From positions 1 through 20,486 of the IMG/VR virus record IMGVR_UViG_3300030060_000501: a stretch of DNA of 20,486 nucleotides; one strand, 5' to 3'. Made by a program: the position numbers and the translations under genes. A model generated the notes under the pieces. It saw only the letters and a program-made list of their open reading frames with translations, searched no databases and was not told the DNA's origin. Positions 1-17,354 of this stretch are shown here, piece by piece; position 1 is the stretch's first letter, and the number at the start of each line of letters is the position of its first letter. This DNA comes from a virus.

Positions 1-279
1 GTGGAAAATCTGAGTTACATATGTGTATGCAGCTCTGTCTCTTCCAAGGTATTCAGTAGGACTAGCACCTTCTTGAGCTTTAGTTGGTTCAGATGAAATG
101 GTTGCATTATCTTCTACTTGGACTTGCCAAAATGTAGAGTTTAATGTTTTACCTCCATTTAAACCACCTGCTGCTGTAAGTAAAGGTGTCCTTTGACCAC
201 CGACTTTAAACAATTCACCAGCGAAGTTATTAATGTTTTGTGCATAAATCGTATTGTTTGTTAACGATATGTCTGCCAT
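1..279 (-). CDS. Major capsid protein, SU10-like, N-terminal part (runs off the window)
   Basis: The first 93 codons of a leftward gene are present, starting with ATG at 279 and still open at base 1. An AGGAGAAG ribosome site lies at 286-293, seven bases upstream. The peptide begins MADISLTNN and contains LLTAAGGLNGGKTLNS (about residues 34-49), an acidic EGASPTEY segment and YVTQIF close to the window edge. I recognise this pattern from the SU10-type major capsid proteins (HK97 fold): a GG-rich turn, a beta segment with FWQ, an EGA segment and a conserved TQIF. It follows directly after a scaffold-like gene, which is the usual scaffold-capsid order. It would form the icosahedral shell. The family call rests on about a third of the protein, from memory of the family; a capsid role is more certain than the exact family. 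Confidence 0.65.
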   Translation of the reverse strand, partial: MADISLTNNTIYAQNINNFAGELFKVGGQRTPLLTAAGGLNGGKTLNSTFWQVQVEDNATISSEPTKAQEGASPTEYLGRDRAAYTYVTQIFH

Positions 280-2093: not shown

Positions 2094-3487
2094 TATCCTA
2101 TCCTAGTGTCTCTAAGCACATTTCCGCCTAATGAAGATGATATCTTTTCTGCCATGTCACTCATAAAGTATTCGTTTCTTTGAGCATATGCACTTGTTCT
2201 ATATTTTTTTCTAGCTTCTATTTGTGATAAACCTACACCTTCTAAGAATGTTTCATCTAACTCATCTGCTACTTCTCCGAAAGTATTTTGATAAAAAGTT
2301 TTATATGGTCCTACAACCATAGAATAATTTAAATTTTTACCTCCATATTTATCTCCCCATACAGGGTCATTGTCAAACATTTGTTGCATTGTACTATTAA
2401 AAGTACCTTGGTCATTTGCATATAACTCTACTAAATTGTTCTGTTCTTCTCTAGATAATCCATTCCAACGAGATAATCCTATGTATCTTATTGCTTGGTT
2501 TTGTGCAGTAATGCCTTGTGTATATGATGCATTTGATTGTGACCAAGTAGGATTGTTTAACTCACTTCTTGGTCCAGAAAATATTTCATAATAATTACTA
2601 TCTTTAGCATAATCAAATCCTTCAATGCCTAATACAAATCCTAAGTATTCATCAAGTAAAGTAGAAGTAATCTTGCCTCTTATAGTTTGTTCTAATAAAT
2701 TTTTGTACAGTTCTGGATTCTCTTTCTTAAATGCATCTGCGTTTACACCTATGTCTGACATTGCAGTAACTAATTCATCTTCTTTTATTCCAAGTAATTT
2801 TGCATACTTTTGATTTGTTACTGTCTCACCATTTAAGTTAAATGATAAAGGGTCATCTCCACCTGTTAATACTGTTGCGTTTAAGAAATCTAATTGCCCT
2901 TGTGTATAACCTGTTGTTAATCCTGCTCTACTAAGTTGTTCTGATGTTAAAGAAGTACCTAAAGCTAATGATTCAAACAGTAATGTTAAACCAACAGCTT
3001 TACCATTTATCTCATCAAACAACCAAGGGTATGATGTTTTTAATTCTTCAAATCCATCAAATACAAAATCAGAAAAATTATTATTAGCGACAGGTGCAAA
3101 CTTACCACCTACATTAAATCCTTGCATTGTTAAGCTACGGTCTTCTATGATTGTTCCTGGAGGAGGTGTATTAGATAATGCAGGACCTACTCTATCTTCT
3201 CCGTCTGCTGATGTACCCCAGTTAGTATTGTATCTGTTAGCAGTCAAACCATTTGCTACATAAGATATGTATGCTGGATATCCAACTAAACCAGATATAT
3301 CATATGCAAAGTAAACAACACCTTCTTTTACATATACATAATCTGCAACTAATTTATCACTGTGTACCCAATTGGCTAATCCTCTTGATGGTGCTGGTGG
3401 ACTTGTACTCCAACCATCTCCTTCATAAAGCTCTAAATCTTCTCTCTCTATTTGTCTTTGTTCACCGTCTTTATATATAGTTATCAT
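2093..3487 (-). CDS. Structural protein, probable internal virion or ejection component (464 aa)
   Basis: The function is not recognised. The N-terminal 30 residues (IYKDGEQRQIEREDLELYEGDGW) resemble a small beta module that leads into a Pro-rich SPPAPSR linker. A Gly/Asn/Thr-rich middle and a helical C-terminal half (about residues 230-464) follow, with many aromatic residues and an NLVELYANDQ segment. No transmembrane helix or enzyme motif is apparent. Its start overlaps the lysozyme stop by four bases (ATGA), and its stop overlaps the next start (TAATG). The gene sits inside the block of large virion proteins, so a role in the internal core or DNA-delivery machinery is the best inference. 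A tail or adhesin part cannot be excluded. Confidence 0.5.
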   Translation of the reverse strand: MITIYKDGEQRQIEREDLELYEGDGWSTSPPAPSRGLANWVHSDKLVADYVYVKEGVVYFAYDISGLVGYPAYISYVANGLTANRYNTNWGTSADGEDRVGPALSNTPPPGTIIEDRSLTMQGFNVGGKFAPVANNNFSDFVFDGFEELKTSYPWLFDEINGKAVGLTLLFESLALGTSLTSEQLSRAGLTTGYTQGQLDFLNATVLTGGDDPLSFNLNGETVTNQKYAKLLGIKEDELVTAMSDIGVNADAFKKENPELYKNLLEQTIRGKITSTLLDEYLGFVLGIEGFDYAKDSNYYEIFSGPRSELNNPTWSQSNASYTQGITAQNQAIRYIGLSRWNGLSREEQNNLVELYANDQGTFNSTMQQMFDNDPVWGDKYGGKNLNYSMVVGPYKTFYQNTFGEVADELDETFLEGVGLSQIEARKKYRTSAYAQRNEYFMSDMAEKISSSLGGNVLRDTRIG

Positions 3488-4341
3488 TTTGTTTCTTCTT
3501 TATTATATACTTTATCCATAAAATCTAATTGTCTATCTATTGTATCTCCAACAATTTCTTTTGTCTTACTCTTTATTGATTGACCTAACTTTCTAAAATA
3601 CTGTGGCACATCATTTATTGGGTCAAAGAAATCTGATGTTACAGTTACTGTCATCTCTTTATCTGCTTCTTGTTGTACTCGTTCTGGTGTCCAATATGGT
3701 CTTACATCATTTACACCATAAAGTTCTTGTAATGCTCTAGACCATAATTCATTAGTAGCATCATCAGGTATCATATAGCTACCTACTTTTTTAAATATTC
3801 TTTGCACTTCTGTAGGAACAGTACCTCCATTATCATCAGTGTCATTGTCTTCAAAATCAAAATTTGTAAATTTACCTTCTTTATCTAATCTATTCATTGC
3901 CCAATCAGGTACTTCACCTTTATATTTTCTAGCAAACTTTTTCTCTTGGTCTTCTCTAATATCTATAGCATTACCTTTAGAAATAAGTTCTAGACCATCA
4001 TAAGTTCCTATGTCTCCTTCAAGATTACGTAAAGTCCAAGGTCTATTAAAATAAACTAATGTTGCATACATTAGTTCTTCTTCTGAAAAATCTTCAATAG
4101 ATATATTTGGGCTATTTTTAATAAGTCTTTCAACAGTTTCTCTCGCATGATTTAAATCTAATTGCAATATTTCTATTGCTTTTTCTCTATCTATTACATC
4201 ACCCATTTCAAAATCATATGTTTCTGTTGCATTAGTATGTCCAAATCCAATAGTAGGTGTTCCATTTACATCTTCATATGCATTAGTTTTAAATCCTTCT
4301 AGCTCTTCTATTTCACCAATTATTTCTTCTGTCAGGTCCAT
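3484..4341 (-). CDS. Virion-associated T4-type lysozyme (glycoside hydrolase 24)
   Basis: This is a 285-residue muramidase-like protein expected to cut the glycan chains of peptidoglycan. The catalytic triad of T4 lysozyme is visible with exact spacing: E15 (LEGF), D24 (YEDVNG) and T30 (TIGFGHT), matching E11-D20-T26 of T4. The lysozyme core fills about the first 130-150 residues, with YFNRPWTLRN near residue 100. The remaining C-terminal half is unrelated and ends in a helical KSKTKEIVGDTIDRQLDF segment, perhaps for virion attachment. An upstream ATG at 4416 is in frame but would overlap the preceding gene by 74 bases. The ATG at 4341 has AGGA just upstream and follows the previous stop by one base, so I chose it. 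Its place among ejection proteins, with no holin beside it, suggests local wall digestion at entry rather than host lysis. Confidence 0.85.
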   Translation of the reverse strand: MDLTEEIIGEIEELEGFKTNAYEDVNGTPTIGFGHTNATETYDFEMGDVIDREKAIEILQLDLNHARETVERLIKNSPNISIEDFSEEELMYATLVYFNRPWTLRNLEGDIGTYDGLELISKGNAIDIREDQEKKFARKYKGEVPDWAMNRLDKEGKFTNFDFEDNDTDDNGGTVPTEVQRIFKKVGSYMIPDDATNELWSRALQELYGVNDVRPYWTPERVQQEADKEMTVTVTSDFFDPINDVPQYFRKLGQSIKSKTKEIVGDTIDRQLDFMDKVYNKEETK

Positions 4342-4342
4342 A

Positions 4343-6049
4343 TTAATTTCCTGATTGATTACCGATGGCTGCAAGGCTAGCCATAATGCTAGCAAAAGAT
4401 TTCCTGTATTGTGCATCTGCCTGACTTCCTGTAATTACATCTCCATAAGTATCTCTCATAAAGTCGTCAAAACTTGTTGCCATTGCTCCTGCAACATCTA
4501 CTTCTGCTTCTAGTGCTGTTGGTGTAAAGTCTCCTACTCTACCTTGACCAGCAAGGTTTCTTCTTCTTCTTGCATCTTCTAATTGAATTTCCATATTTTT
4601 TTGTCTTATATCAAAGTTTTGTTTTTGTAATGAATAATCTTGTTTAGACCAAAAATCAAAAAACTCTTGTAGTTCTCCATCTGATGCTGGTCTACCTAAT
4701 CCATCTTGTATTGCTGAGCTAATATAACTACTTGCATTTGTAAAATTAGGTTTTGTATAATTAAATATATTTTGATACGCATTGTCACTACCAAAGTTTG
4801 GTTCAAAAGCACCTGTACCATAACCATAATCTGCTAAGGAATCTTTAAAAAACTCTTTTAAAAATACATTCATATTACCTGCAGTGCTACCTGGAGCTAG
4901 AAGTATGCTATACAAATCTTCCATACTCATACCATCACCATTTAAATTAAATCTTGACATTGCAGATTCTATAGCACTTATTGTGCCACCTGGATTGTTA
5001 TCTAATACTCCATAAACAAATGTAAATGGTTGCAAGAATCCAGACTCTACTAATAAAAGTTGTGTATCCATAATGTCTTCTGGTGATGCATTAGCAAACA
5101 ATGATGTAGCTAAACCATTTTGATATAAAGGCATTGTTCCTTGATTAGTGTCTTCACTATACACATCTAAATCTAATTCTCCTATACCATAGTAATCTTG
5201 CTCACCAAAATAAGTTCTTGCTCTTGCTTGTTCTGCTTCTTCTGGTGTCATTTCTAAACCAGGTCCATATAAAGTTGCGTCTGTAAAAGCAAAACCTTCA
5301 TTAATAAATTTATCTACATAATCTGCACCATATTCGTTATCTATAATTGCATCTAAACCTGATACATATTCTTCAGTAGTTATTTCATCATTGTCAAGTT
5401 TATTTTTTAATTCATCTGCAGATGCTAAATCTATATTTTTTGCGGCTGCTGTTATGTAATCCATATCTAATGATTGTTTATTTATATATGCTTTATAAGC
5501 TAAGTCTGCTTGAGGAGCATAACCTGCAGATATTGCTGTACCTACAACATCAGCACTAATGTGTTGCAATTCAGGTGGTAATCTATCGGCTTCATGTAAG
5601 TTTATTAATACATCAGTACCTTCTGAAATAATTTCTACAGCTTCTTTCATTGCAGGAGTATCGTAAGAAAATGATTGATATATAAAATTTACATAATCTT
5701 TTGTATTTTGAGGCAATGATTCATATGATTGACCTGTCATTGCTTCAACCCACAAATGATATTCAGCTAAACTTACTTCTGGCATTTCTAAATCTGCTTG
5801 TTCTAATTGTCCACTTTCTCTAGAACTAAAGTAATTTAGTACTTCACTACCAAATTGTCGTACAAATTGTTCTCTACCTAAAAAGAAAATACTTAAAAAG
5901 TCATTAAATAATTCGGTGTTAAATGTAGTAGGTCTATTTTTTTCTGGAAGACTAAACTCATATCCACCCCAGCTATATTCTTTTTTTTCATTTACACCAA
6001 GAATAGTATCTAATACAGATTGTTCTTCTTCTGTATATTGTTCTGACAT
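4343..6049 (-). CDS. Structural protein, probable internal virion or ejection component (568 aa)
   Basis: I do not recognise the family. The protein is acidic and largely helical, with abundant Tyr/Phe/Asp. Near residues 365-380 it has NLNGDGMSMED, which resembles a calcium-binding EF-hand or dockerin loop but lacks a proper acidic residue at position 12. The C-terminal part carries a Gln/Arg-rich helix (LQKQNFDIRQKNMEIQLEDA, then RRRR) followed by an Ala/Ser-rich end. There is no signal peptide or convincing membrane helix. It begins in a TAATG junction with the stop of the 2165-residue gene, and a GGAG site lies seven bases upstream. It ends one base before the lysozyme start. Tight coupling to the giant protein and the lysozyme suggests these are assembled together in the virion. 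Confidence 0.5.
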   Translation of the reverse strand: MSEQYTEEEQSVLDTILGVNEKKEYSWGGYEFSLPEKNRPTTFNTELFNDFLSIFFLGREQFVRQFGSEVLNYFSSRESGQLEQADLEMPEVSLAEYHLWVEAMTGQSYESLPQNTKDYVNFIYQSFSYDTPAMKEAVEIISEGTDVLINLHEADRLPPELQHISADVVGTAISAGYAPQADLAYKAYINKQSLDMDYITAAAKNIDLASADELKNKLDNDEITTEEYVSGLDAIIDNEYGADYVDKFINEGFAFTDATLYGPGLEMTPEEAEQARARTYFGEQDYYGIGELDLDVYSEDTNQGTMPLYQNGLATSLFANASPEDIMDTQLLLVESGFLQPFTFVYGVLDNNPGGTISAIESAMSRFNLNGDGMSMEDLYSILLAPGSTAGNMNVFLKEFFKDSLADYGYGTGAFEPNFGSDNAYQNIFNYTKPNFTNASSYISSAIQDGLGRPASDGELQEFFDFWSKQDYSLQKQNFDIRQKNMEIQLEDARRRRNLAGQGRVGDFTPTALEAEVDVAGAMATSFDDFMRDTYGDVITGSQADAQYRKSFASIMASLAAIGNQSGN

Positions 6050-9000
6050 TAAATATCTCCTCCATAATAACTTACTTCTTCTTCTATCTCTACTCTAAAC
6101 ACATCAAAGTACATAAAGTAAAAGTCTGGATTTTCTAGCATAATTTTGTTAGCAACACCTCTTAAATAACTTCTGTACTGAGAGGCTTCCGCTCTACTTA
6201 AAGTAGCGTTTAATCCATACTCTGATTTTATTACATTCATAACTCTTTGTCTTGCTGTTAAGTATTTAATAATTCCTTTCATAGCTGATAATTCTTTTAA
6301 TTTTTTAGTAGAACCATCCGGCATATTGATTGTTGTATCCCCTTCTCTTTGTATCATCTCAGTTAATTGGTCTATTTTTGCTTGAGATGTTAAAGAACGT
6401 GGTGCTGTTGAAGTATCTCCATAGCCTTGAAATTGTTGTTGCAATTGTAATCTTACTAAATATAGTTGTTCTACTCTTTTTTGATAAGGCATGTTTGCAT
6501 ACATTGGTCCATCCATTATGACTCTTCTAGCATGTTCATATGCTAAACTTCCTTGTGCTTGTCTTACAGCTTGTTTATATTCTTCTGGTGATAAATCTAC
6601 TCTATCACCATCAGCAAAAGCTTTATTCCAAGCTTGCCAATTAAACTCGTCTAATGGACTATCAGGATACATGTAATATGCAACATCAGGATATTGTTTA
6701 AATATATCTATATTTTCTTGTTTAAAGAAACCACCTTCATCTGTAAAAGAAGTTTTTCTTATAGACTTAGATTTAGAAGTTAACAAAGAGGTAGGTTCAA
6801 AACCAAATACTTTTATAAATTGTGCTATAGCTACAACTCTATCTCCATTAGCTTTTGCTAACATTTGATAATAAGCATCTGATAATAAAGTTTGTGCAAA
6901 GTATTTACCTTCTGGGTCTCCTTCTGCAGTTTCTCTAGGGTCTAAATAAGCTCTACCTCCTGGTCCTATTTCATAATCATATTGTAAAACAGCACCTGTA
7001 GGAGCTAAGAATTGTATAAATGCTCTATGTAATAAACTTTGTGTTGCTAATCTTTTAGCTTTTTCTAATGATGCAACTTCTTGTTCTGGTGTTGAATCAT
7101 CATATGTCTGTGTCATAAACATAGCTCTTTGTATTTCTTTTACTTGATTTGCATAAGCTCTTTGAAACTCTACATCCATAGAGTCTCCTGCTGTTATTGC
7201 TTTTCTAAGCCAACTAGGTATAGCTTGCTTTGCATAAAACAATGGGTTAGCCATCTGTGGTACACCTTCATCTGGTCTACCATATGGAAAAAATACTTTG
7301 TCTACATCAGGAGTAGAAGGTAACATAGCTGCTGCAGGTATCTGTGCCAATGGTCCAAGACCAGGTATAATATCTCCAGCAACCATATTTAAACCGCTTG
7401 CATATCCTCTTAGTTTCGTATTTATACTAGGTATTTCTGTTGTTTCTTTTCCTGTTATAGGGTTTGTACCTAAAGCATCTGGATTAGGATTTTGTAAACT
7501 TTTGTCTATGTTAAATATATTTTCAAACCAATTCATGTTGTACATTTCTTCACCTGATTGTGGGTCAGTAGTAAAGAATCCTTCATCTTCATACTCTCCA
7601 AATATGCTTGGTTTACGCATAGCTTCTACACTTCTTTGTACTTTTCTACCAAATAACATCTTTTGTCCTCTTAATAATCTTGACCATGTACCAGCTATTT
7701 CAAGATAAACTTCTGCGAAAGGCATTGCTAATCTAACCATGTCTGTAATAACATGTCGTTTATTTAAATCGTAAAGCAAATCTTTTGTTTCTGTTAATGC
7801 ATATGCTTTTGCTAACTCATCAACTTGTCTTAAATCATCTACACCAAGTAGTTTAGAAGCATTAGCTTGTCCCATATTTTCTAAACTCTTAAGATATTTT
7901 CTTGCTCTGCTACCAGGGTTTGACCTACCCATAACTTTTTTAGCTTGTGCAAATACTTGTGTTCTTGCAGCGTCATCTAAATTTGCATACATGTTTTCCA
8001 TAAAGTTCCAATAAAATTGTCTAAACGCTGGAGAACGTGATAAGTCATTTGTTGTTGAACCCATCAAACCTGAAAACATTGTTTCTAATAATTTGTCATA
8101 CTTACTTGCTACATCTCCTGACATGTCAGTTCTAGATGCTTTAAATTTATGTGTGTCAGTCCATACACCACTTTTTTTAGTTCTTAACCAATTGGTATAT
8201 TTTTTATGTTGTGACTCTGACATTTCTCTATTAAATTTAAGTTTTACATCTTCACCTTTGTCAGTAATTTTTACAAATTGATTATCTGCTTTTGCAATGT
8301 GACCTATTAGTTCTTCATCTCCAGCTTGTACGATTGTGTATTTAATAACATTGTTTTCACTTTTAATAGTAGGTTTTATAGAATTTTCGTCCCATACATT
8401 ACCAACAAACTTACCATCTGGTGTGTATTCTACAGCTCTATATCTACCACCTGTCTTGTCATGTATCCTTGCAACAATAGAATCTATATATGAATCTGAG
8501 TGTACTTTACTACTAGATAATAATGATTTAGTATATCTACCTGTTTCATCAGAGTTTGATACAAATGATTTTCTCCATTGGCTTAATTCACCATCCCAGA
8601 ATGATTGTTTAACTTCATCTAAACTTCTATTAAATTGTTCTCTACCTCCTACAGGATTAAATTCAATAGAAGCTATTCGTGTAGCTAAAGGGTCATCTGC
8701 AAGTTGTAGTAACTCCTTAGTACCAGCTCCATAAAATCTTTTGTTATCTTTTGTAACCTGTGTAAATCCTCTTGCTCTCTTAGGGTCAAAGCCAATAGTC
8801 ATACCTCTATGAGATTGTGTTAACGCTCTTTGATGTTCCATAGCTAGTTCTAATGATGCATCAAATATATCTGTACCACCTCTTCCTAAATTTAAAGTGT
8901 CAGCTAAATAATCATCTCTTAATTTTTGTCTTTGTCCTTTTAACAAACCTTGTCTTTGTGAAGGTTTTCTACCTAGTACCCATGCAAACGCAGAAAATGG

Positions 9001-12000
9001 ATGTGCAAACATATTGTCTAAGTCTGCTGCCCACATACGTAATTGTTCTTCACCAACAACTCTTAATACCCAAGCAGGTCGTAAAAGAATAGATGGCTTC
9101 CATAATCTTTGCATATAGCCATCACCAATCATAGTAAGCATTCCTTCTGTTAAATTAACAATTTCTGAATCATCTGAAGTTTTCTTTACATTTACTCTTG
9201 CTTTTTTGACAACAAGCTTAATTGTTTCCATTGCAGTCTTATCTTCTTTTAAAGCTAATTCAGCTAAGTTTGCTACTGGTTTAGCTAATAATCTTTCATA
9301 ATCTTCTGTAGAAATATTTTTAGCTCTACCGGAAAGTCTTAACATTAAATCTCTCATAGGTCTAAATACTCTAATAAACATTCTTGCATCTGGCATAGGT
9401 ATAAATCCTTGGTCAAAGTATTCAGATATCAAATGTGCTGTAGCTTTTGGAACTTTATTTATTTGTACTCTTTTAGATAAATCTTTGCTATTAGCTATTT
9501 CATCTGATATATCTTCTACAACTGTTCTTAATTCTTGTGCTGTGTAAAGTGTTTCATCACCAGGTTTAATTCTTTCTATTGCATTATCAATAGCACCTTT
9601 AACATTACCTAATGTAATGTTTGGTTGGAATACTTTTTGTACAAACATAATATCTTCCATAGCTGTTTTAAGTAACGCTTCTTCTGCTTTTGTAAAATCA
9701 CTTGGTCCTGAAACATTTAATGACCTGACATTATTAAATTCAGCAAACCTTTGTATTTCTTCAGCTTGTTTTTTTGTAAGACCTTTAGACAAATCAACTA
9801 CAGCATAAGGTTTATGTCCCTGGTATACACCTGGCTTTAAACCTTTAATACCTTTCTCAATAACATGTGTACCTTTTTCTAAATAATTTGCTACTTGTTT
9901 AAGTCCTTGTCCACCTTTGCTAGCACCCATAAATATAATTGTCATGTCTGCATCATCTAAGTTGTATCTAGAAACTCTACTTATTTCTTGTTTGTCTAGT
10001 TTCATAGTTGCAAAATCTTGGTCCCAAAATTTTTGGTCGTATATTTTCTTTTTGTCTATTTCAGATAGACCTTTAAACTCTGGAACTACATCACTTACTT
10101 CATTAGTAAGAGTCTGTATTCTTTTGTCAATTCTTGTTCTATCTGCAAGAGATGAACTTAAATCATCTTTATAAGGTTTTACTGCTTCATCTAATTGTTC
10201 TTGTATTGCTGCTCTAGCATCTTTAGTTGTAGCTTCAGGAAATTCTTTTTTATATGCAGATATATTATCTGTGTTTGCTTTGTACTGTTTACCTATTTCG
10301 TCAATCTGTGTTCTTAAAGATTGTATTTTTTCTGTTACATTTCTTGTTTTAGTTTCTAGACCATTTAGTTCTTGTACATTTCTTTCTGCTTTCTGCCTTA
10401 CTTTTCTTGGTAACTTAGATACTTCTACGCCTGTTCTTTCTAATGCTTCTTGTCTAGCTACAGATAAGTTTTTTAACTCAGCAGCTTTATCTGCATCTGA
10501 CATATCAGATAAACCTAGTTCTTTCATTCTTTGTGAAACATCAGTACCAGACTTACCTCTAAAACCATAAGGAACTCGACCACCAGTTTGTATACCTATT
10601 TCATCTGCAATGTTTAAAGCAGCTTGTTCTACACCTTCGTAGTATCCACCAGTAATATATTCAACTAACGCTCTATCTTCTGGAGTAGTTGTGTTACTAG
10701 CTATATCTTTTATATCTTGTAAAATAAAATCTAATTCATCTGTATCAACTTTGTTTGATTTTTTATATTTAGATAAAACTCTTGACACAATATTTAAAGC
10801 TTCATCATCAGTTAATTGTTCTGAAAAGTAAGTATCAAAAGGTAAATCTTCTATTTTACTGCCTGGAAAGTATTCAAGTTCACCTAGTGCATTTGTGAAA
10901 TACATTCTTGTTTCATCAATACTTGCCATCCATTTTCTAATTCCTTGTACTAACTCTTTAGGCAAGTTAATGTTTTCAAATTTTTCACCTATATGTTTTT
11001 GTACGTCATTCCAAATATCTAAAATATCATTCATGTTTCTTACAGACTGAGCTTTACTAACAGTATCTGCACCTTTTTGTGTAAGTGCTAAATCTGCAAG
11101 CCTATCTAAAGCAGGTTCTGCAATAGCATCATCAACTCTTGCATACCTCATCCAATCTTGTAAATCAAAAAAAGATTGATTAAAATCGTTAACATACAAC
11201 TTTGGTGCAGGAAATGTATCAAACATTCTACCTAAAGCAGTGTTATTTAAATTATGTCTAATAGCACCAGATAAACCTACAGCTTCACCTAGTTCTCCAC
11301 CAACCATACGACCTAATTTAGATGACACCTGTCCTCTAAATATTAAAGAGTTAGGATTTAATTTCTTTGTTATTTCTCCAGCTTCTATAGCAGCTACTAC
11401 TAAATCTTCTGTTTCTCTAGTTGTCTTAGCGTTTTTAATATTTCTATGTAATACAGCGTCTGCACCACTACTACCTCTTTTACCAAGTAATCTTTTAATA
11501 GTTCCATAGTCATCAGCTTTAGTTAACTGATTTATAATTTTTCTTCCCCCTGCTGTTCTTGTTACATACTCAATTGCAGAAGGTACATGTACAGTTTTTC
11601 TTACAGCTTTATCAATAATACCAGCACCTTTCAAAGCATCTCCTTGAGATAATGACCTAGTAATTTTTCCTGCTTTTGATAAATAACCACCAACTAATAT
11701 TGTTGGGTCAGCAAGTAAAGTAAAAGCACCGTCAACAATACCTGTTGCTACGTTGTATGACCTAGAACCTGGTTCTAAAACATTTGCAAACATAGCTGCT
11801 GCTGGTGTAAGTTTTACAGTACCGTTTTTAGACCTAATTGTTAAACCTTCGTCTCTAGCTTGTTCTGAATTAGTTATATCTTCTCCGTAATAACTTTGTA
11901 CTATTTTTTTAACTTCTTCTGGGTCAGCACCTCTACCAACCATTTCTTTATATATATCTGTATTTTCTGCCATAGTAGAGTTTCCAAAAAAACCTTCGCC

Positions 12001-12546
12001 TAAATTTACTTTTTCTCCAGCTAAAGATTTTTTTATAGCTTCTCTACCTACAGACGGTCCTAATATCTGTCTTGTTTTCTGCCATTCTTTTTGTGCTTTT
12101 TTATCAAATAACAATGATGAAGCTGCTGTAACAAATCCTTGACCATCATTATGTTTTCTATCATTTAAATATTTTTGTGTAGCTAACATTGGTTTTTTTA
12201 CCAACTCATCTTGAAAAGAATCAAAGGCTACAAATGCAGTTCTAACTGCTCCTTTACCTGCATTTTTAGTTCTATCCCACCAAGTCTTTTCAACATCTAA
12301 CCATCTTTCTACTAAAGGTGCTAACTCTGGTGATTCAGTAGTTAAACCCATAAGAGCAGAACCAATTAATATATCTTTTGGCAAATAAAAATTTTCAGTA
12401 ATTAAATTTTTTAAATTATTTGCTATACCAGGATTTGCTTCTAAAGCATCTGTAATTTGTTGAGCTTGCACAAATCTTTCTTTTTGTGCTTCTTCTTCTA
12501 AATTTTCTGTATAAGGAGGTTGCCACCACCATCTAATTTCTGCCAT
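6049..12546 (-). CDS. Giant internal virion/ejection protein with an embedded, split SLOG (cpYpsA-like) domain, 2165 aa
   Basis: This is the largest gene of the window, with a near-perfect AGGAGG site before its ATG. Residues 1-600 are helical with a hydrophobic patch at about 262-292 (VDGAFTLLADPTILVGG), a style seen in T7 gp16-like injected proteins. Residues 628-680 carry GGYYEGVEQAALNIADEIG, then TGGRVPYGFR. Residues 859-952 carry RYNLDDADMTIIF, KPYAVVDLS and LNVSGP. Together they follow the order of motifs in the circularly permuted YpsA family (SLOG superfamily, MoCo_carrier). Between them lies a Lys/Glu/Gln-rich, likely coiled-coil insertion of about 180 residues. The C-terminal third has GDIIPGLGPLAQIPAAA (about 1724-1740) and FFPYGRPDEG, which I recall from large phage ejection proteins. 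The virion location is inferred from neighbours. The SLOG call is from motif order, with one extra residue in the GG-loop. No RNA-polymerase motifs are seen. Confidence 0.65.
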   Translation of the reverse strand: MAEIRWWWQPPYTENLEEEAQKERFVQAQQITDALEANPGIANNLKNLITENFYLPKDILIGSALMGLTTESPELAPLVERWLDVEKTWWDRTKNAGKGAVRTAFVAFDSFQDELVKKPMLATQKYLNDRKHNDGQGFVTAASSLLFDKKAQKEWQKTRQILGPSVGREAIKKSLAGEKVNLGEGFFGNSTMAENTDIYKEMVGRGADPEEVKKIVQSYYGEDITNSEQARDEGLTIRSKNGTVKLTPAAAMFANVLEPGSRSYNVATGIVDGAFTLLADPTILVGGYLSKAGKITRSLSQGDALKGAGIIDKAVRKTVHVPSAIEYVTRTAGGRKIINQLTKADDYGTIKRLLGKRGSSGADAVLHRNIKNAKTTRETEDLVVAAIEAGEITKKLNPNSLIFRGQVSSKLGRMVGGELGEAVGLSGAIRHNLNNTALGRMFDTFPAPKLYVNDFNQSFFDLQDWMRYARVDDAIAEPALDRLADLALTQKGADTVSKAQSVRNMNDILDIWNDVQKHIGEKFENINLPKELVQGIRKWMASIDETRMYFTNALGELEYFPGSKIEDLPFDTYFSEQLTDDEALNIVSRVLSKYKKSNKVDTDELDFILQDIKDIASNTTTPEDRALVEYITGGYYEGVEQAALNIADEIGIQTGGRVPYGFRGKSGTDVSQRMKELGLSDMSDADKAAELKNLSVARQEALERTGVEVSKLPRKVRQKAERNVQELNGLETKTRNVTEKIQSLRTQIDEIGKQYKANTDNISAYKKEFPEATTKDARAAIQEQLDEAVKPYKDDLSSSLADRTRIDKRIQTLTNEVSDVVPEFKGLSEIDKKKIYDQKFWDQDFATMKLDKQEISRVSRYNLDDADMTIIFMGASKGGQGLKQVANYLEKGTHVIEKGIKGLKPGVYQGHKPYAVVDLSKGLTKKQAEEIQRFAEFNNVRSLNVSGPSDFTKAEEALLKTAMEDIMFVQKVFQPNITLGNVKGAIDNAIERIKPGDETLYTAQELRTVVEDISDEIANSKDLSKRVQINKVPKATAHLISEYFDQGFIPMPDARMFIRVFRPMRDLMLRLSGRAKNISTEDYERLLAKPVANLAELALKEDKTAMETIKLVVKKARVNVKKTSDDSEIVNLTEGMLTMIGDGYMQRLWKPSILLRPAWVLRVVGEEQLRMWAADLDNMFAHPFSAFAWVLGRKPSQRQGLLKGQRQKLRDDYLADTLNLGRGGTDIFDASLELAMEHQRALTQSHRGMTIGFDPKRARGFTQVTKDNKRFYGAGTKELLQLADDPLATRIASIEFNPVGGREQFNRSLDEVKQSFWDGELSQWRKSFVSNSDETGRYTKSLLSSSKVHSDSYIDSIVARIHDKTGGRYRAVEYTPDGKFVGNVWDENSIKPTIKSENNVIKYTIVQAGDEELIGHIAKADNQFVKITDKGEDVKLKFNREMSESQHKKYTNWLRTKKSGVWTDTHKFKASRTDMSGDVASKYDKLLETMFSGLMGSTTNDLSRSPAFRQFYWNFMENMYANLDDAARTQVFAQAKKVMGRSNPGSRARKYLKSLENMGQANASKLLGVDDLRQVDELAKAYALTETKDLLYDLNKRHVITDMVRLAMPFAEVYLEIAGTWSRLLRGQKMLFGRKVQRSVEAMRKPSIFGEYEDEGFFTTDPQSGEEMYNMNWFENIFNIDKSLQNPNPDALGTNPITGKETTEIPSINTKLRGYASGLNMVAGDIIPGLGPLAQIPAAAMLPSTPDVDKVFFPYGRPDEGVPQMANPLFYAKQAIPSWLRKAITAGDSMDVEFQRAYANQVKEIQRAMFMTQTYDDSTPEQEVASLEKAKRLATQSLLHRAFIQFLAPTGAVLQYDYEIGPGGRAYLDPRETAEGDPEGKYFAQTLLSDAYYQMLAKANGDRVVAIAQFIKVFGFEPTSLLTSKSKSIRKTSFTDEGGFFKQENIDIFKQYPDVAYYMYPDSPLDEFNWQAWNKAFADGDRVDLSPEEYKQAVRQAQGSLAYEHARRVIMDGPMYANMPYQKRVEQLYLVRLQLQQQFQGYGDTSTAPRSLTSQAKIDQLTEMIQREGDTTINMPDGSTKKLKELSAMKGIIKYLTARQRVMNVIKSEYGLNATLSRAEASQYRSYLRGVANKIMLENPDFYFMYFDVFRVEIEEEVSYYGGDI

Positions 12547-12872: not shown

Positions 12873-13047
12873 AAAATTCTTCTCCATCTGGAATAATTAA
12901 CATATCTAATCTTCCTACACCTGGTATGTAAGCAATTGTAATACTATTAACAATTCTTTCTTCTACTGTATATTCTGCCATTGGTGGTATGTAATCTGGA
13001 AAGTTTCTTGCTACAATTTCTGCAAATTCAAATTCTGAACCTTCCAT
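12865..13047 (-). CDS. Hypothetical small acidic protein after portal (60 aa)
   Basis: This acidic 60-residue protein (MEGSEFEFAEIV start) has a likely helix followed by beta-type segments (EERIVNSITIAYIPG and RLDMLIIPDG). It begins in a TAATG junction with the portal stop, preceded by AGGTGG, and overlaps the next start by eight bases. The family is not recognised. Position directly after the portal fits a head-tail joining or portal-associated factor, but this is only context. Confidence 0.55.
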   Translation of the reverse strand: MEGSEFEFAEIVARNFPDYIPPMAEYTVEERIVNSITIAYIPGVGRLDMLIIPDGEEFYG

Positions 13048-14777
13048 TAACCACCACCTAGTAATGCTTGTAAGTTAGGAGGACCACCTTGTTGTACAGC
13101 TTGTGCTTGTTGTGCTTGTTGTAACATTGCTTGTTCTTCGACTGAAGGTTCATCACCTACAGCAGAAAAGAATTTTTCTAATGTATTTCCAATATTTTTT
13201 GGATTATTGTATATTTCTACAACTGCCATCATAGCTTTTGTATCTCCCTGTTGAGATTGTTGCAATAACATTTGGAACAAAATTTCTTCTGTTTTTTGTT
13301 TTGTTATTCTTTCATTAATCTGAACAATATTGTCAAGTCCGTCCATTTCTTGTTGCATTGTTTCTTTATCTATAATTCCTGCTTGTAACAATTGCAAACC
13401 AGTAATTATCTTGTTTGGTGCATCAAAGGAAGCCATAGCACCATATTTTCTTTTAGTCATATAGTTACTATCAATATCTCTATCTGGAGTATAAAACTCT
13501 GCAAAGGAAGCTCCTTTGTATGTACCAGTCATAGGTTTACGTTTGTTACCTAATAAGATTTCATCTAGTTCAAGACGCTTTGCATCTACATCTTGTAACG
13601 CATATTCTAAAATAGTATGGTATTCAGAAACCATCTGACCTACGCCAGACTCAAGTTCTTCTAAACCTCTACCTGTTACAAATGAATTAGGAGATATTGC
13701 ATCATCCTGAACTGGATAACCTGCTACTACTCTCAATTGTCTTTCGAGTCGTCCTACAGATTCAAATAACTGATATGGCAAATTAGTAACTGGTTTCACT
13801 ACTTGTGAACCAGGAGCTAAGTAATTTATAGAATGTCTACCTTTTCTATATTTACCTGACTCTATTTCGCCAATAATATTTGTTTCTGTAAAAACTGCAT
13901 CTTCCATAGCTATAACAGATAAAATATTTATCTTTGCCATAGCTGCCATTAAACCTATAACTTGGTCAAACTGACCTTGTAATTTATCAAAACTAAATCT
14001 TTTTGCAACAACAAATGCTGGTCCTGATTTAAGTGGGTTAGGAACAAAATCTACAACTTTTTTAGAAGCAGGGTGTACTACATAAGTTCCTTCTGGATTC
14101 ATGTATTCTATAATTACATCTCCGTCATCACCTGAATTTGCCCAACTACCTTCATTATTGTTTAATCCATATAACCCAGCAGGTCCATTTTGCCTATCTT
14201 CGTTGTCGTTATCGTTGTACCATGATTTTAATTCAGGATACATTTTTATTAATTCTTTAAGAGGAATGTTAGAAACAATAACAAGTTCTTGTGGTTCCTG
14301 CATATTTCCAAAATAACCAGGATAACAATCATAAGGGTTTCTTAATTCTGCACAAGGATATATATTTCCATTGCTATCTTTCTTTGATGTTATAACCCAT
14401 ACAGCAAAACCGTAACCTGGTAGCCATCTAGCAACTTGTGGTAGTTGTAATTCAAGTTTTTGCATATGGTCATACGAACTAATAATTCTTTCTATTTTTT
14501 CTTTCTTAACTTTATTACGACCACTATCTCTAGCATTTGTTATTTGTACTTCTGTTGATGGTGTTTTACCAATTTTTTGAGCTAATCTGTCCAATGCAGA
14601 TAACATTAAGTTAGGTGCAGGTAAATTACCACTATCTACTTTTGTAGTGCCTAAAAGTTCTGCTATGCCTTTTTCTCCACCATTAAGTATACTTTTAAAT
14701 TTATGTCTATCAGGTAATGCGTCTTGATGCATATTTCTAAGATATACAGCTCTGTCCAATATCTGTTGTGGTGTCAC
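13047..14777 (-). CDS. Portal protein
   Basis: A 576-residue protein expected to form the dodecameric ring at the unique capsid vertex through which DNA is packaged and ejected. It follows the terminase directly. It shows portal features: an N-terminal helical region with LPAPNLMLSALDRLAQKIG (about 52-70), a wing-like stretch LPGYGFAVWVI and NPYDCYPGYFG (about 119-157), the MEDAVF/SGKYRKGRHSINYLAPG stem-side region, and a Gln-rich disordered C-terminus (MLQQAQQAQAVQQGG). The start codon is GTG at 14775-14777, with GGAG inside the end of the terminase gene about nine bases upstream. The next ATG would remove 14 residues. The gap to the terminase stop is only four bases, and the stop forms TAATG with the next gene. 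The call is firm from order and these segments; the exact portal subfamily is not determined. Confidence 0.85.
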   Translation of the reverse strand: MTPQQILDRAVYLRNMHQDALPDRHKFKSILNGGEKGIAELLGTTKVDSGNLPAPNLMLSALDRLAQKIGKTPSTEVQITNARDSGRNKVKKEKIERIISSYDHMQKLELQLPQVARWLPGYGFAVWVITSKKDSNGNIYPCAELRNPYDCYPGYFGNMQEPQELVIVSNIPLKELIKMYPELKSWYNDNDNEDRQNGPAGLYGLNNNEGSWANSGDDGDVIIEYMNPEGTYVVHPASKKVVDFVPNPLKSGPAFVVAKRFSFDKLQGQFDQVIGLMAAMAKINILSVIAMEDAVFTETNIIGEIESGKYRKGRHSINYLAPGSQVVKPVTNLPYQLFESVGRLERQLRVVAGYPVQDDAISPNSFVTGRGLEELESGVGQMVSEYHTILEYALQDVDAKRLELDEILLGNKRKPMTGTYKGASFAEFYTPDRDIDSNYMTKRKYGAMASFDAPNKIITGLQLLQAGIIDKETMQQEMDGLDNIVQINERITKQKTEEILFQMLLQQSQQGDTKAMMAVVEIYNNPKNIGNTLEKFFSAVGDEPSVEEQAMLQQAQQAQAVQQGGPPNLQALLGGG

Positions 14778-14781
14778 TTAT

Positions 14782-16695
14782 CTAACTCCAAGGTAACTCG
14801 TTCCAATCCATAGTATCATACTTATCGTAACTTGGAGAGTAATCATAGGACAAATCAGCGTATGTTAGCCTTGTTAATGTCCTAACAGTTTTCATAGGAA
14901 ACCATGAAGCCATAACAACGTCTGATGCTACACCCCTATTGTTTCCTTGACCTTTTGAAGCAAAATATGTCAGTTGCTTTGTGTATAATATAGATTTTGA
15001 TATTCCTTCATCATTACCAAAAGGTAATGTTATAACACCTTCTTGAAACATAGGTGCTAATGCAGTTACACCAAATTTTTCGTCCCACTTATTTTTATGT
15101 GTTTCGTGTCCTTCTAGTTTAATTCCTTGTGTTGCTGCAAACTTTTTAATCCTATCATCTTGTCTAATAGCTTTTTGAAAACCATTTTCTTCTATAACCC
15201 AATGATAACAATTGTATTTGTCATACCATTTTTTAATAAGTTCTAATGCTTCATCTAGACCTCCACCTTGGTGGTTTTCTAAATCAACCATTTGTAATTT
15301 AGGTTTTCCGTTTTCTGTATCTACAGCCCATAAAAATCCTGCTTGATAACCTGTTGCAGCAGGGTCTAAACCTGCAACTAAATAACTTTGTTTAGGTATA
15401 TATCCTAAAGGTATAGAAGTGTCATAACATTTTTCTATAATTTCAGGATTAAATATATTAAGACCTTCTGCCATAGCTTTATTTAAATAAACCATCTCAA
15501 AGTTCTTTAATCCACCTGTAGTTAAGGCATCATTCTTTCTATTCATTAACCATTTAAAAGTTCTAAAACTTCCCCACAACATACAGTCAACATGTTTTTC
15601 TTCATCAAATTCTGCTATTGAACACATGCTATCGTGTGCTTCTTCTACTATTGTTTCCCATGCTGTATTGTTCAAAAGAGATGAATACAAGTCTTCTGGA
15701 TGTTGTCTAGAACCAATTAAAACCATAGCTGTGTGTTCTTCTTTTCTAGAACCTAATGTTGTTGTCCACCATTGTTTTGTATTTTCTCTTGACTTAGGTT
15801 GCATTGTAGAACTGTGGTCTTCAATGTCATCTGCAATAATTATGTCACAGTCTCTTGATAGAATTTTACCACCTCTACCTATGCCAATCATTGTTGGTGA
15901 TTTAATACCAGGTATAGTTCTTGTTGCTACAGAAAATTGATTTTGTGACCATGATTTACCTGTTCTATTAGCAGGTTTAAAACTACCGCCTGGTCCACAG
16001 TAAGCTTCTTTTAACTTATCGTTATTATCTAATGTATCCATAATTGATGACACAGAGTTTTTTGCAATGTCTTCGTTACCACCAACCCACATAATTCTTA
16101 TATTAGGATTAGTACATATAAGCCAAACTACAAAATGTATAAGTAATTCTGTCTTACCATGTCTAGGTGGAGATAGTATCATTTGTTGTCCACCAGTTTC
16201 TATAGCTTTTATAATTGAATCTATCCATACTTTATGAAAATCAGCAGTCTCAAACAATTCACCTTTTTCTGTTTGAAAATACATATCTCTAAAATCTTGG
16301 AAATCTTTTTCTGCTTGCAATGTAGCTTCTGATTTTTTCCAATTTTGTGTTTGTGCTGCTTGTTCTATATCTTCTTGATAAGCACCTAAGAGTCTTGAAA
16401 TATGTGCTGGAGTACAACCTAACAATTCTGCTATAGCATTACGTTTCATTGTTCCGTTTATTAAATCTAATGCGTAACCTTCTTCTACAAACTTGTCATA
16501 CAAAGCACCTCTTCTAGTTGTAGCTACTTTAGATTTGTTTACTTTTTTTTCTTCAGGTATATATTCACGATTTTGTTTAACACCTCTATGTACTCGTTTT
16601 TGTTCACGCCATTTACAAGTATCTGAACAATACTTTCTTTTTCCTTTAGGTAAAGAGTTATCGCATTCTGGAGATACACATATTAAATTAGGCAT
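14782..16695 (-). CDS. terL: Terminase large subunit with N-terminal zinc-finger and HTH extension
   Basis: A 637-residue packaging motor. ATPase: Walker A SPPRHGKT at residues 175-182, Walker B DIIIADD at 284-290 followed by the catalytic acidic pair, and a coupling motif around LIGSRQHPED (326-335). RNase H-type nuclease: acidic residues D444 (LVAGLDPAATG), E502/E503 (WVIEENGFQ) and D592 (VASDVVMASW). Unusually, the ATPase is preceded by about 130 residues: a Cys4 site (C6, C11, C23, C27) in a short ribbon, a basic linker, and a helix-turn-helix-like NAIAELLGCTPAHISRLLGA (86-105). Such a DNA-binding module is normally supplied by the small terminase subunit, which I do not see separately. 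The ATG overlaps the stop of the preceding 37-codon gene by eight bases. It acts at the portal during DNA packaging. Confidence 0.93.
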   Translation of the reverse strand: MPNLICVSPECDNSLPKGKRKYCSDTCKWREQKRVHRGVKQNREYIPEEKKVNKSKVATTRRGALYDKFVEEGYALDLINGTMKRNAIAELLGCTPAHISRLLGAYQEDIEQAAQTQNWKKSEATLQAEKDFQDFRDMYFQTEKGELFETADFHKVWIDSIIKAIETGGQQMILSPPRHGKTELLIHFVVWLICTNPNIRIMWVGGNEDIAKNSVSSIMDTLDNNDKLKEAYCGPGGSFKPANRTGKSWSQNQFSVATRTIPGIKSPTMIGIGRGGKILSRDCDIIIADDIEDHSSTMQPKSRENTKQWWTTTLGSRKEEHTAMVLIGSRQHPEDLYSSLLNNTAWETIVEEAHDSMCSIAEFDEEKHVDCMLWGSFRTFKWLMNRKNDALTTGGLKNFEMVYLNKAMAEGLNIFNPEIIEKCYDTSIPLGYIPKQSYLVAGLDPAATGYQAGFLWAVDTENGKPKLQMVDLENHQGGGLDEALELIKKWYDKYNCYHWVIEENGFQKAIRQDDRIKKFAATQGIKLEGHETHKNKWDEKFGVTALAPMFQEGVITLPFGNDEGISKSILYTKQLTYFASKGQGNNRGVASDVVMASWFPMKTVRTLTRLTYADLSYDYSPSYDKYDTMDWNELPWS

Positions 16696-16801: not shown

Positions 16802-17013
16802 TACTCTTCTTCTTGTTCAGCTCTTACTTCGTTCATAGTTTGCATATTAAAGTTGTAATCTATTACAAACTGCTCTAATAATCTATCTACTGTATATACA
16901 TCGTGATTATTTAACTTTAAACTTGTTTGTGTTACTTCTTGTCCACCACAAGCATTTGCTAATTTTATTGCCCATTTTTTTAATTCTTTAGGCTCACTAA
17001 ATAAATTGCTCAT
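16801..17013 (-). CDS. Hypothetical small helical protein before terminase (70 aa)
   Basis: A 70-residue protein with helices at LKKWAIKLANACGG and DRLLEQFVIDYNFN and an acidic tail RAEQEEE. The start has an excellent GGAGG site and overlaps the nuclease stop as ATGA. No family is recognised. A tiny small-terminase-like or DNA-binding adaptor is a possibility from its position just ahead of the terminase, but it is shorter than known small subunits and no HTH is clear. Confidence 0.65.
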   Translation of the reverse strand: MSNLFSEPKELKKWAIKLANACGGQEVTQTSLKLNNHDVYTVDRLLEQFVIDYNFNMQTMNEVRAEQEEE

Positions 17014-17354
17014 CTCTTACCTCCATAGTATTCAACAGCATGTCCATTATCTACCATTAATTGATTTATATTTAGACCGTTAATAAAAAATTCACCAAGT
17101 ATTCTTCCAAATTTACCTTTGCCGTGAGATTGTAATTCTATTACTTCATCAGTTTCAAATTTATTTTTTAACCAATCCTTTGCAGCAAGCCCTCTTGCTT
17201 TCTCTTCTTTATCTCTGGTTCTAGACTCTGGAGCGTTAATGCCCATAAGTCGTACACGACATTTATGCCACACATCAAAACCCAAATCAATTCGTACATC
17301 TACAGTATCACCATCTACTACTCTAAGTATTTCTACTTCGTAATAGTATTTCAT
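17010..17354 (-). CDS. Staphylococcal-nuclease-like (SNase/thermonuclease) protein
   Basis: A 114-residue OB-fold nuclease. Visible family landmarks are VDGDT (13-17), VRLMGINAPESR with R35 and E43 (equal in number to the catalytic R35/E43 of staphylococcal nuclease), and KFGRILGEF with R84 standing for R87. The strand-helix order after these also fits, ending with NQLMVDNGHAVEYY. The protein is a complete, minimal domain without a signal peptide, so it should act inside the cell, cutting DNA or RNA in a calcium-dependent manner. Possible uses are host-genome breakdown for nucleotides or trimming of replication/packaging intermediates. The start overlaps the stop of the 39-codon gene as ATGA, and its end overlaps the 70-residue gene. 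The family assignment is strong; the biological substrate is not known. Confidence 0.9.
   Translation of the reverse strand: MKYYYEVEILRVVDGDTVDVRIDLGFDVWHKCRVRLMGINAPESRTRDKEEKARGLAAKDWLKNKFETDEVIELQSHGKGKFGRILGEFFINGLNINQLMVDNGHAVEYYGGKR

Follow-up and report, generated by a model that had tools for sequence, protein, structure and literature searches.

Does a 2165-residue protein encoded among the virion genes of a phage carry a nucleotide-binding SLOG domain, and what might such a domain do there? The window, meaning the whole stretch of DNA that was analysed, is a complete virus record of 20,486 bases with 33.3% G+C. Its reverse strand encodes the giant protein at 6049–12546, and its open reading frame, its relatives and the gene order mark it as a probable internal (ejected) virion protein with a split SLOG domain. 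Full-length relatives of 2163–2168 residues are present at six other compared loci (L004, L005, L006, L008, L012 and L015). In L140 and L141 the giant ORF is broken, either ahead of the SLOG domain or within it. The original prediction placed a circularly permuted YpsA (cpYpsA) type of SLOG domain at 9691–10665, which corresponds to residues 952–628. Its motifs lie at the residues claimed, with GGYYEG from residue 633, NLDDADMTI from 862, KPYAVVDLS from 912 and LNVSGP from 943.

Profile searches were carried out with and without the residues between the two halves. PF12694 matched the whole protein in two stretches with 29.8 bits (E 5.6e-7; Pfam-A, curated cut-off 26.2) and the 325-residue span with 37.7 bits (E 2.1e-9). 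When the halves were joined without the insert, the score rose to 48.5 bits (E 9.8e-13) in a single match covering profile positions 4–127. Taken separately, the N-terminal half (21.2 bits, E 2.5e-4, profile positions 4–38) and the C-terminal half (22.8 bits, E 8.4e-5, positions 88–125) are under the cut-off, and each matches PF12694 and no other Pfam family. A genome-level search that scores pieces singly detected both (17.7 and 16.6 bits, neither above the cut-off) and gave no PF12694 match in 14 control genomes. A local profile built from 146 uncut cpYpsA sequences matched the giant protein with 54.9 bits (E 3e-17). Residues 623–671 correspond to profile positions 7–54 and residues 850–954 to positions 64–148, so both pieces fall in the right order, as the predicted circular permutation of the motifs implies. 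Against the same profile, 200 shuffled versions and one reversed version of the giant protein reached no more than 3.8 bits. A chance motif match is ruled out by this maximum together with the score of the joined halves and the local profile E value.

Searches by single sequence gave less. With phmmer against the PDB, mostly coiled coils and no cpYpsA protein were recovered. Coiled-coil matches (ZapB, keratin, JetC, LmuB) were rejected as family evidence as they fall mainly on the insert. Neither the giant protein, the joined domain nor two sister giants had a tblastn match in 50,697 phage records. An alignment of 82 sequences (A11) was assembled from this phage, 15 split relatives and 66 uncut relatives, the latter taken from 138 non-redundant uncut sequences. 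The profile of this alignment, which is mostly of uncut sequences, matched PDB entry 3IMK at E 2.8e-50.

AlphaFold2 was run on A11 and gave a model with pLDDT 77.9 and pTM 0.57; on 10 close sequences it gave no usable fold (pLDDT 49). The strands of the model are drawn from both halves (residues 630–632, 653–658, 868–873, 914–918 and 942–946), and long helices occupy the insert (residues 684–709, 714–754, 759–768 and 774–820). The top PDB match in Foldseek is 3IMK (probability 1.00, TM 0.77 by target length, E 0.026), and no PDB match in that search reached E 0.001. VIA-align 2 paired model residues 22–369 with 155/158 residues of 3IMK (Z 18.4, rmsd 3.3, 23% identity). The next row has Z 10.8, and lower rows mostly pair the insert (model residues 114–227) with helical coiled-coil proteins, which we take to be hairpins. 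The first match to the model in a viral structure library carries the annotation DNA processing protein A, at E 2.8e-6, with a molybdenum cofactor carrier lower down. A failure of the halves to form one Rossmann-like fold would have spoken against the assignment; in the model the halves together match 3IMK. Because uncut relatives were in the alignment, 66 of them cpYpsA sequences, the model is not independent evidence of family membership. A single sheet built from both halves, with the arm projecting, is supported as a predicted arrangement by the alignment to 3IMK and the positions of the helices, from which it was read rather than from coordinates.

Pfam, the local profile of uncut relatives and the match of the model to 3IMK thus bear out the predicted membership, and they confirm residues 621–968 as one cpYpsA-type SLOG domain (PF12694), interrupted after strand 2 by an insert of some 170 residues, most of them helical. 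The domain lies where it was claimed, in a span drawn slightly too short, since the 3IMK match covers residues 621–968. Because that match runs to residue 968, the domain end falls near 9643–9646. On the reverse strand, the N-terminal half (10504–10665, residues 628–681) is defined by PF12694 positions 4–38, local profile positions 7–54 and the model strands. It contains strand 1, the GG-YYE-GVE loop with the GxE residues G638-V639-E640, strand 2 with TGG, and P-x-GFR. The inserted helical arm occupies 9997–10503 (about residues 682–850), as judged from model secondary structure, coiled-coil structural matches and low identity. The original prediction had given it about 180 helical residues; a long helical insertion is indeed found, and the insert proper is nearer 170. 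The C-terminal half (9646–9996, residues 851–967) was placed by PF12694 positions 88–125, local profile positions 64–148, conservation and the model; its landmarks are N862, D867, T869, G881, the KP at 912–913, N944-G947 and the last helix. By sequence profile and by model, then, a protein coded among virion genes shows a genuine cpYpsA SLOG fold that a helical arm splits. An Rfam search of the whole window gave no match.

The split is not confined to this phage. Both halves and an insert were found in 41 distinct contigs, this phage counted, with 165–361 residues beyond the model between the halves (46 rows minus five repeats: L149, L135, L157, L055 and the second L076). Because it is common to 41 distinct contigs, the insertion is no quirk of a single phage, and a single-assembly artefact is ruled out on the same ground. 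Near relatives on 15 contigs are 71–100% identical, 14 of them aligning across all 325 residues including the insert; L014 is cut. In L141 the C-terminal half alone was detected, and the split relative L059 has a Pfam score of 16.5 bits.

The distribution of the domain within one phage family was examined by a search based on the terminase, using the best 80 of at least 586 relatives. In 32 of these 80 loci an ORF of 700 residues or more lies downstream of the terminase, and 7/32 giant ORFs contain the SLOG domain (L055, L056, L057, L059, L060, L061 and L076; in L060, whose contig is cut, the N-terminal half alone is visible). The terminases of these seven are 67–94% identical to that of this phage. 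The other 25 giant ORFs, of which 19 are complete and some near-identical, gave no SLOG match better than E 0.17, and their terminases are at most 61% identical. A terminase tree with 34 rows places those that lack SLOG in one group, except for the very distant Streptomyces phage Dennebes, with support of 94/93, just below the threshold for a firm branch. Four further SLOG-less rows (L080, L084, L124 and L127) were left out for in-frame stops in the stretches taken. Because the SLOG-less terminases fall in one group, one gain or loss within the family suffices.

Residue conservation was compared between split and uncut sequences. Ten positions are kept in 16/16 split rows of A11: G638, D/E640, T654, G656, N862, T869, G881, P913, N944 and G947. 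The GxD/E signature, G638-V639-E640 here, is present in 41/41 distinct split rows. We take this GVE to be the same motif as G53 and E55 of YpsA. Other positions that are near-invariant in uncut sequences have changed. The Q of GGQTGAD is altered in the split rows, with the exception of L057, which lies outside A11, and the T is lost in many rows and kept in the GGNTGVD of L143–L148, and the L056 group retains a GGNxGVD loop; the contrast in Q and QTG with the uncut set is inflated because the uncut loci were picked using the QTG pattern. T859, the T of the RT before N862, is changed in 16/16 split rows of A11 and T885 in 10/16. In the group of six rows to which this phage belongs, R858 and R949 have changed as well (V858-S859 for RT, S949 for the R of GPRE), and the GG loop has one extra residue. 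In YpsA, G53 and E55 form the GxD/E signature, predicted to bind substrate, and the G53A and E55Q changes lose focus formation (PMC6459960).

Selection was estimated from five sequences. The halves have dN/dS of 0.075–0.30 in 20/20 pairwise values (two halves each), and the insert 0.18–0.45 in 10/10. Both halves are under purifying selection and are on average more constrained than the insert. The 60-residue bin of lowest identity in the protein lies within the insert in 4/5 pairwise comparisons; in the fifth, with L012, the bin at 961 is lower.

These results bear on whether the SLOG fold binds anything at all. It could be a purely structural block without ligand function, the arm serving as a packing element. 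The drift that the split group shows at near-invariant positions, which means that even binding could be lost in the group of this phage, would fit such a role, as would the ability of phages of the same terminase family to manage without the domain (the 25/32 giant ORFs above). Also consistent with it, no second recognised domain, and hence no other effector domain, passes its own cut-off in a Pfam search of the 2165-residue protein, where cpYpsA alone does so. Against a structural block stand the loop and pocket residues kept in every split row (G638, D/E640, N862, G881, N944 and G947, with GxD/E throughout the 41 contigs) and the stronger average constraint on the halves. We consider it unlikely.

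The kept acidic residue could instead belong to an active enzyme that cleaves the N-glycosidic bond of a nucleotide by LOG-like chemistry. The LOG phosphoribohydrolase motif is PGGxGTxxE, and it is missing from the 2165-residue protein. Several residues near-invariant in uncut cpYpsA have changed, and we know of no catalytic activity in the cpYpsA family. Activity is known for LOG-clade SLOG domains and has been predicted for viral ones (PMC9503650). On balance an active LOG-like enzyme appears very improbable. Binding or sequestration would be likelier than cleavage, since the glycines and the acidic residue of the loop persist while the Q of GGQTGAD and the T of RT, both near-invariant in uncut relatives, have changed, as have the R of RT and the R of GPRE in the group of this phage.

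The arm raises a further question. A long helical arm that breaks the domain just after strand 2 might let a nucleotide sensor gate another activity of the giant protein, or the timing of ejection, and SLOG domains that act as sensors have been described (PMC9503650). Two observations argue against such gating: no second activity was recognised in the giant protein, and the insert varies from 165 to 361 residues, a range that a precise lever would tolerate poorly. A sensor of this kind seems very unlikely.

The gene neighbourhood bears on whether the giant protein is in the particle. On the reverse strand the terminase and portal genes come first, followed by two small ORFs and the giant gene. 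After it come genes for a protein of 568 residues, one with a lysozyme domain, one of 464 residues and one matching phrog_8424; next is a small protein in the usual place of the scaffold, and last a capsid protein of SU10 type. The terminase large subunit (14782–16695, reverse strand) matches phrog_38 at E 9.8e-65 and is 26% identical to that of Dennebes (E 4e-28). The portal protein (13047–14777, reverse) was recognised by its tblastn match (23%, E 2e-22) to the portal gene annotated in Dennebes; Pfam and PHROG searches with it gave no match. Downstream of the giant gene lie the lysozyme-domain protein (3484–4416, reverse; PF00959 E 6.4e-11, phrog_7 E 4.3e-14), the phrog_8424 protein (999–2093, reverse; E 7.9e-13) and the start of the major capsid protein, cut by the end of the window (1–279, reverse; PF17236 E 1.1e-8, above the cut-off). 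Upstream of the terminase, 17010–17354 encodes a small staphylococcal-nuclease-type protein (PF00565, E 4.9e-13). The terminase itself has an N-terminal cysteine-rich stretch and a weak Crp-type helix-turn-helix match (E 0.0017, under the cut-off). As a separate observation, the G+C content and the origin of the nearest named terminases in Streptomyces phages would fit, indirectly, a marine Ca. Actinomarinales host, for which a G+C of about 32.5% is given (PMC7771536).

In Dennebes the terminase is followed by an endolysin, the portal and small ORFs, then by a protein of 1635 residues; further genes separate this from phrog_8424, after which come tRNAs, the scaffold and the capsid. We take Dennebes to be of podophage form. 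Its gp13 is a phrog_8424 protein (E 2.2e-153) located just before scaffold and capsid. Its gp9 (Beephvirinae; phrog_10618) occupies the same slot as the giant protein, but has 1635 residues and lacks a cpYpsA match, whereas the giant protein here has 2165 residues and the split SLOG domain. A profile of 18 family giants matched the Dennebes giant in two weak collinear stretches (E 6e-9, 19.6 bits, a single comparison); the global alignment of the 18 giants behind it does not place cargo sites and was used for the Dennebes comparison only. BLASTP between the two giants was negative (E 0.08), as was a profile of one 343-column stretch (residues about 1016–1350) against the Dennebes giant (probability 0.3%). 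The predicted place of the protein in the ejection apparatus gains from gene order and the weak whole-length Dennebes profile match and loses from the two negative direct comparisons. Gene order and this weak likeness suggest that the giant protein is an ejected internal virion protein. The same negative comparisons, and a virion assignment that rests on gene order, would allow a protein made late in the infected cell and left out of the virion, an alternative compatible with the other readings of the domain. A gene placed between the portal and the lysozyme and capsid genes, and collinear with the Dennebes protein of the same slot, speaks for the virion instead, and for polyvalent proteins encoded at such positions packaging is considered likely (PMC5512222). 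Late synthesis outside the virion is quite unlikely.

The company kept by uncut cpYpsA domains was also examined. A first scan of genome contigs found no relative, and a later one found them. The uncut scans covered the best 80 of at least 533 genome relatives and the best 80 of 235 viral relatives. Among the 160 uncut ORFs with a match from these best-80 lists, none has a two-piece match; 157/160 match once over the full length, with no more than 23 residues in excess, and three have a partial match. The uncut domain sits in an ORF of 1000 residues or more in 20/80 distinct viral contigs (91 viral loci minus 11 repeats) against 2/80 genome loci, which is a pattern and not a rate because giants were part of the query alignment and the lists are the best 80. 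The sequences suggest that SLOG in giant phage proteins recurs.

DUF7831 lies alongside cpYpsA in L057, L164 and L306 (E 1.5e-34, 1.1e-34 and 4e-17, respectively). Weaker companions, all under the cut-off, are NADAR in L162, L163 and L306 (E 8e-5 to 3e-4), DUF4326 in L163 (E 0.002) and ART-PolyVal in L306 (E 0.003). DUF7831 and, more weakly, NADAR, DUF4326 and ART point to NAD or ADP-ribose signals. The giant protein of L057 (14008–20112, end cut) has the split SLOG with the longest insert (361 residues), DUF7831 in a stretch absent from the giant protein of this phage, and before the SLOG an ASCH-like stretch (Pfam only E 0.2); of the group members seen, it combines the most domains.

Several other giants deserve mention. 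L306 (815–7930) encodes a 2372-residue protein with an uncut cpYpsA domain, DUF7831, weak NADAR and ART-PolyVal matches and a second SLOG-like half at 951–1029. Lysozyme and phrog_8424 genes come after it, as after the giant gene of this phage. A backbone profile for the giant protein of this phage gave no match at E < 0.01 to 22 uncut giants, L306 included. When 10 genes next to uncut giants were compared with PHROG, seven gave no match and one matched a family of unknown function; the remaining two, both of L306, are the lysozyme and phrog_8424. A 2647-residue ORF of the cyanobacterium at L201 (Calothrix sp. PCC 7103) has two full cpYpsA matches (1787–1964 and 2179–2353) and a weak third, partial one. 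The HExxH motif, absent from the giant protein of this phage, occurs in giants of SLOG-less sister phages at residue 474 of L065, 552 of L068 and L067 and 533 of L070. In L065 and L068 it lies within a stretch missing from the giant protein here. This stretch may possibly be metallopeptidase cargo, and Pfam found no metallopeptidase family in it in L065 or L068.

How might the split domain act? We propose, tentatively and at a little under an even chance, that the packaged giant protein enters with the genome and that its SLOG pocket captures a host nucleotide of adenine or ADP-ribose type before phage gene expression. The giant protein would be packaged in the virion and would pass into the cell together with the genome. 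Its pocket would be formed by the loop with G638-V639-E640, TGG, N862, G881 and N944-G947. The captured ligand would most likely be an NAD-derived immune signal or a toxic metabolite of the host, and binding on delivery would blunt an NAD-linked alarm ahead of phage gene expression. The helical arm would most likely be an add-on for contact with a partner or for signalling to the remainder of the giant protein that a ligand is bound. Packaging, delivery, ligand and effect are steps that we infer. A bolder version holds that, in this uncultured phage group, the split SLOG is a virion-delivered trap removing an NAD- or ADP-ribose-derived alarm signal before expression, that the arm is an anchor or switch, and that the giant protein is a chassis into which effector domains are plugged, here SLOG, the HExxH protein, DUF7831 and the ASCH-like stretch, at separate sites. 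This version is doubtful. Host second messengers are sequestered by phage sponges, among them Tad1, Tad2 and Acb2 (PMC12043709). A pocket carried in the virion would act ahead of the spread of the alarm, and T4 proteins that are injected and block a host defence set a precedent (PMC12373910). For experiment the split offers a clear handle, with a defined domain, a removable arm and uncut relatives for comparison.

Among known systems, Thoeris ThsA combines SIR2 with SLOG; no SIR2 family was found in the 2165-residue protein (Pfam, E up to 1), and ThsA is absent among the PADLOC matches listed. A search of open-licence PMC literature returned no paper for cpYpsA, DUF7831 or molybdenum carrier with phage. 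A study of viral SLOG domains (PMC9503650) describes them as mostly YpsA-like and, as a rule, standalone. It adds that they tend to occur together with Macro, NADAR and Nudix, and proposes that in that company they counter immune signals of ADP-ribose type. Phage YpsA-like SLOG domains with NADAR, Macro and DUF4326 in the same source resemble ours in SLOG clade and in the company of related copies, but the domain here is split and lies within a giant protein encoded among virion genes. Polyvalent phage proteins, as defined in their survey (PMC5512222), are likewise very large and coded with portal and terminase genes, and L057, like them, has more than one domain. They carry several disparate known domains per chain, whereas in the giant protein here cpYpsA alone is above the cut-off and L057 adds DUF7831. 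The main text of that survey contains no occurrence of SLOG, YpsA or NADAR, and the recurrence of SLOG in giant phage proteins goes unmentioned in it. With the cpYpsA family itself (PF12694; PDB 3IMK, titled putative molybdenum carrier protein) the domain has motif order, GxD/E loop and fold in common; it differs in the at least 165 residues inserted after strand 2, in its 2165-residue host protein and in the changed Q, RT and R positions. The domain family and the kind of place, a giant phage protein, are already known; against the open-licence PMC literature searched, the split by a helical arm is new.
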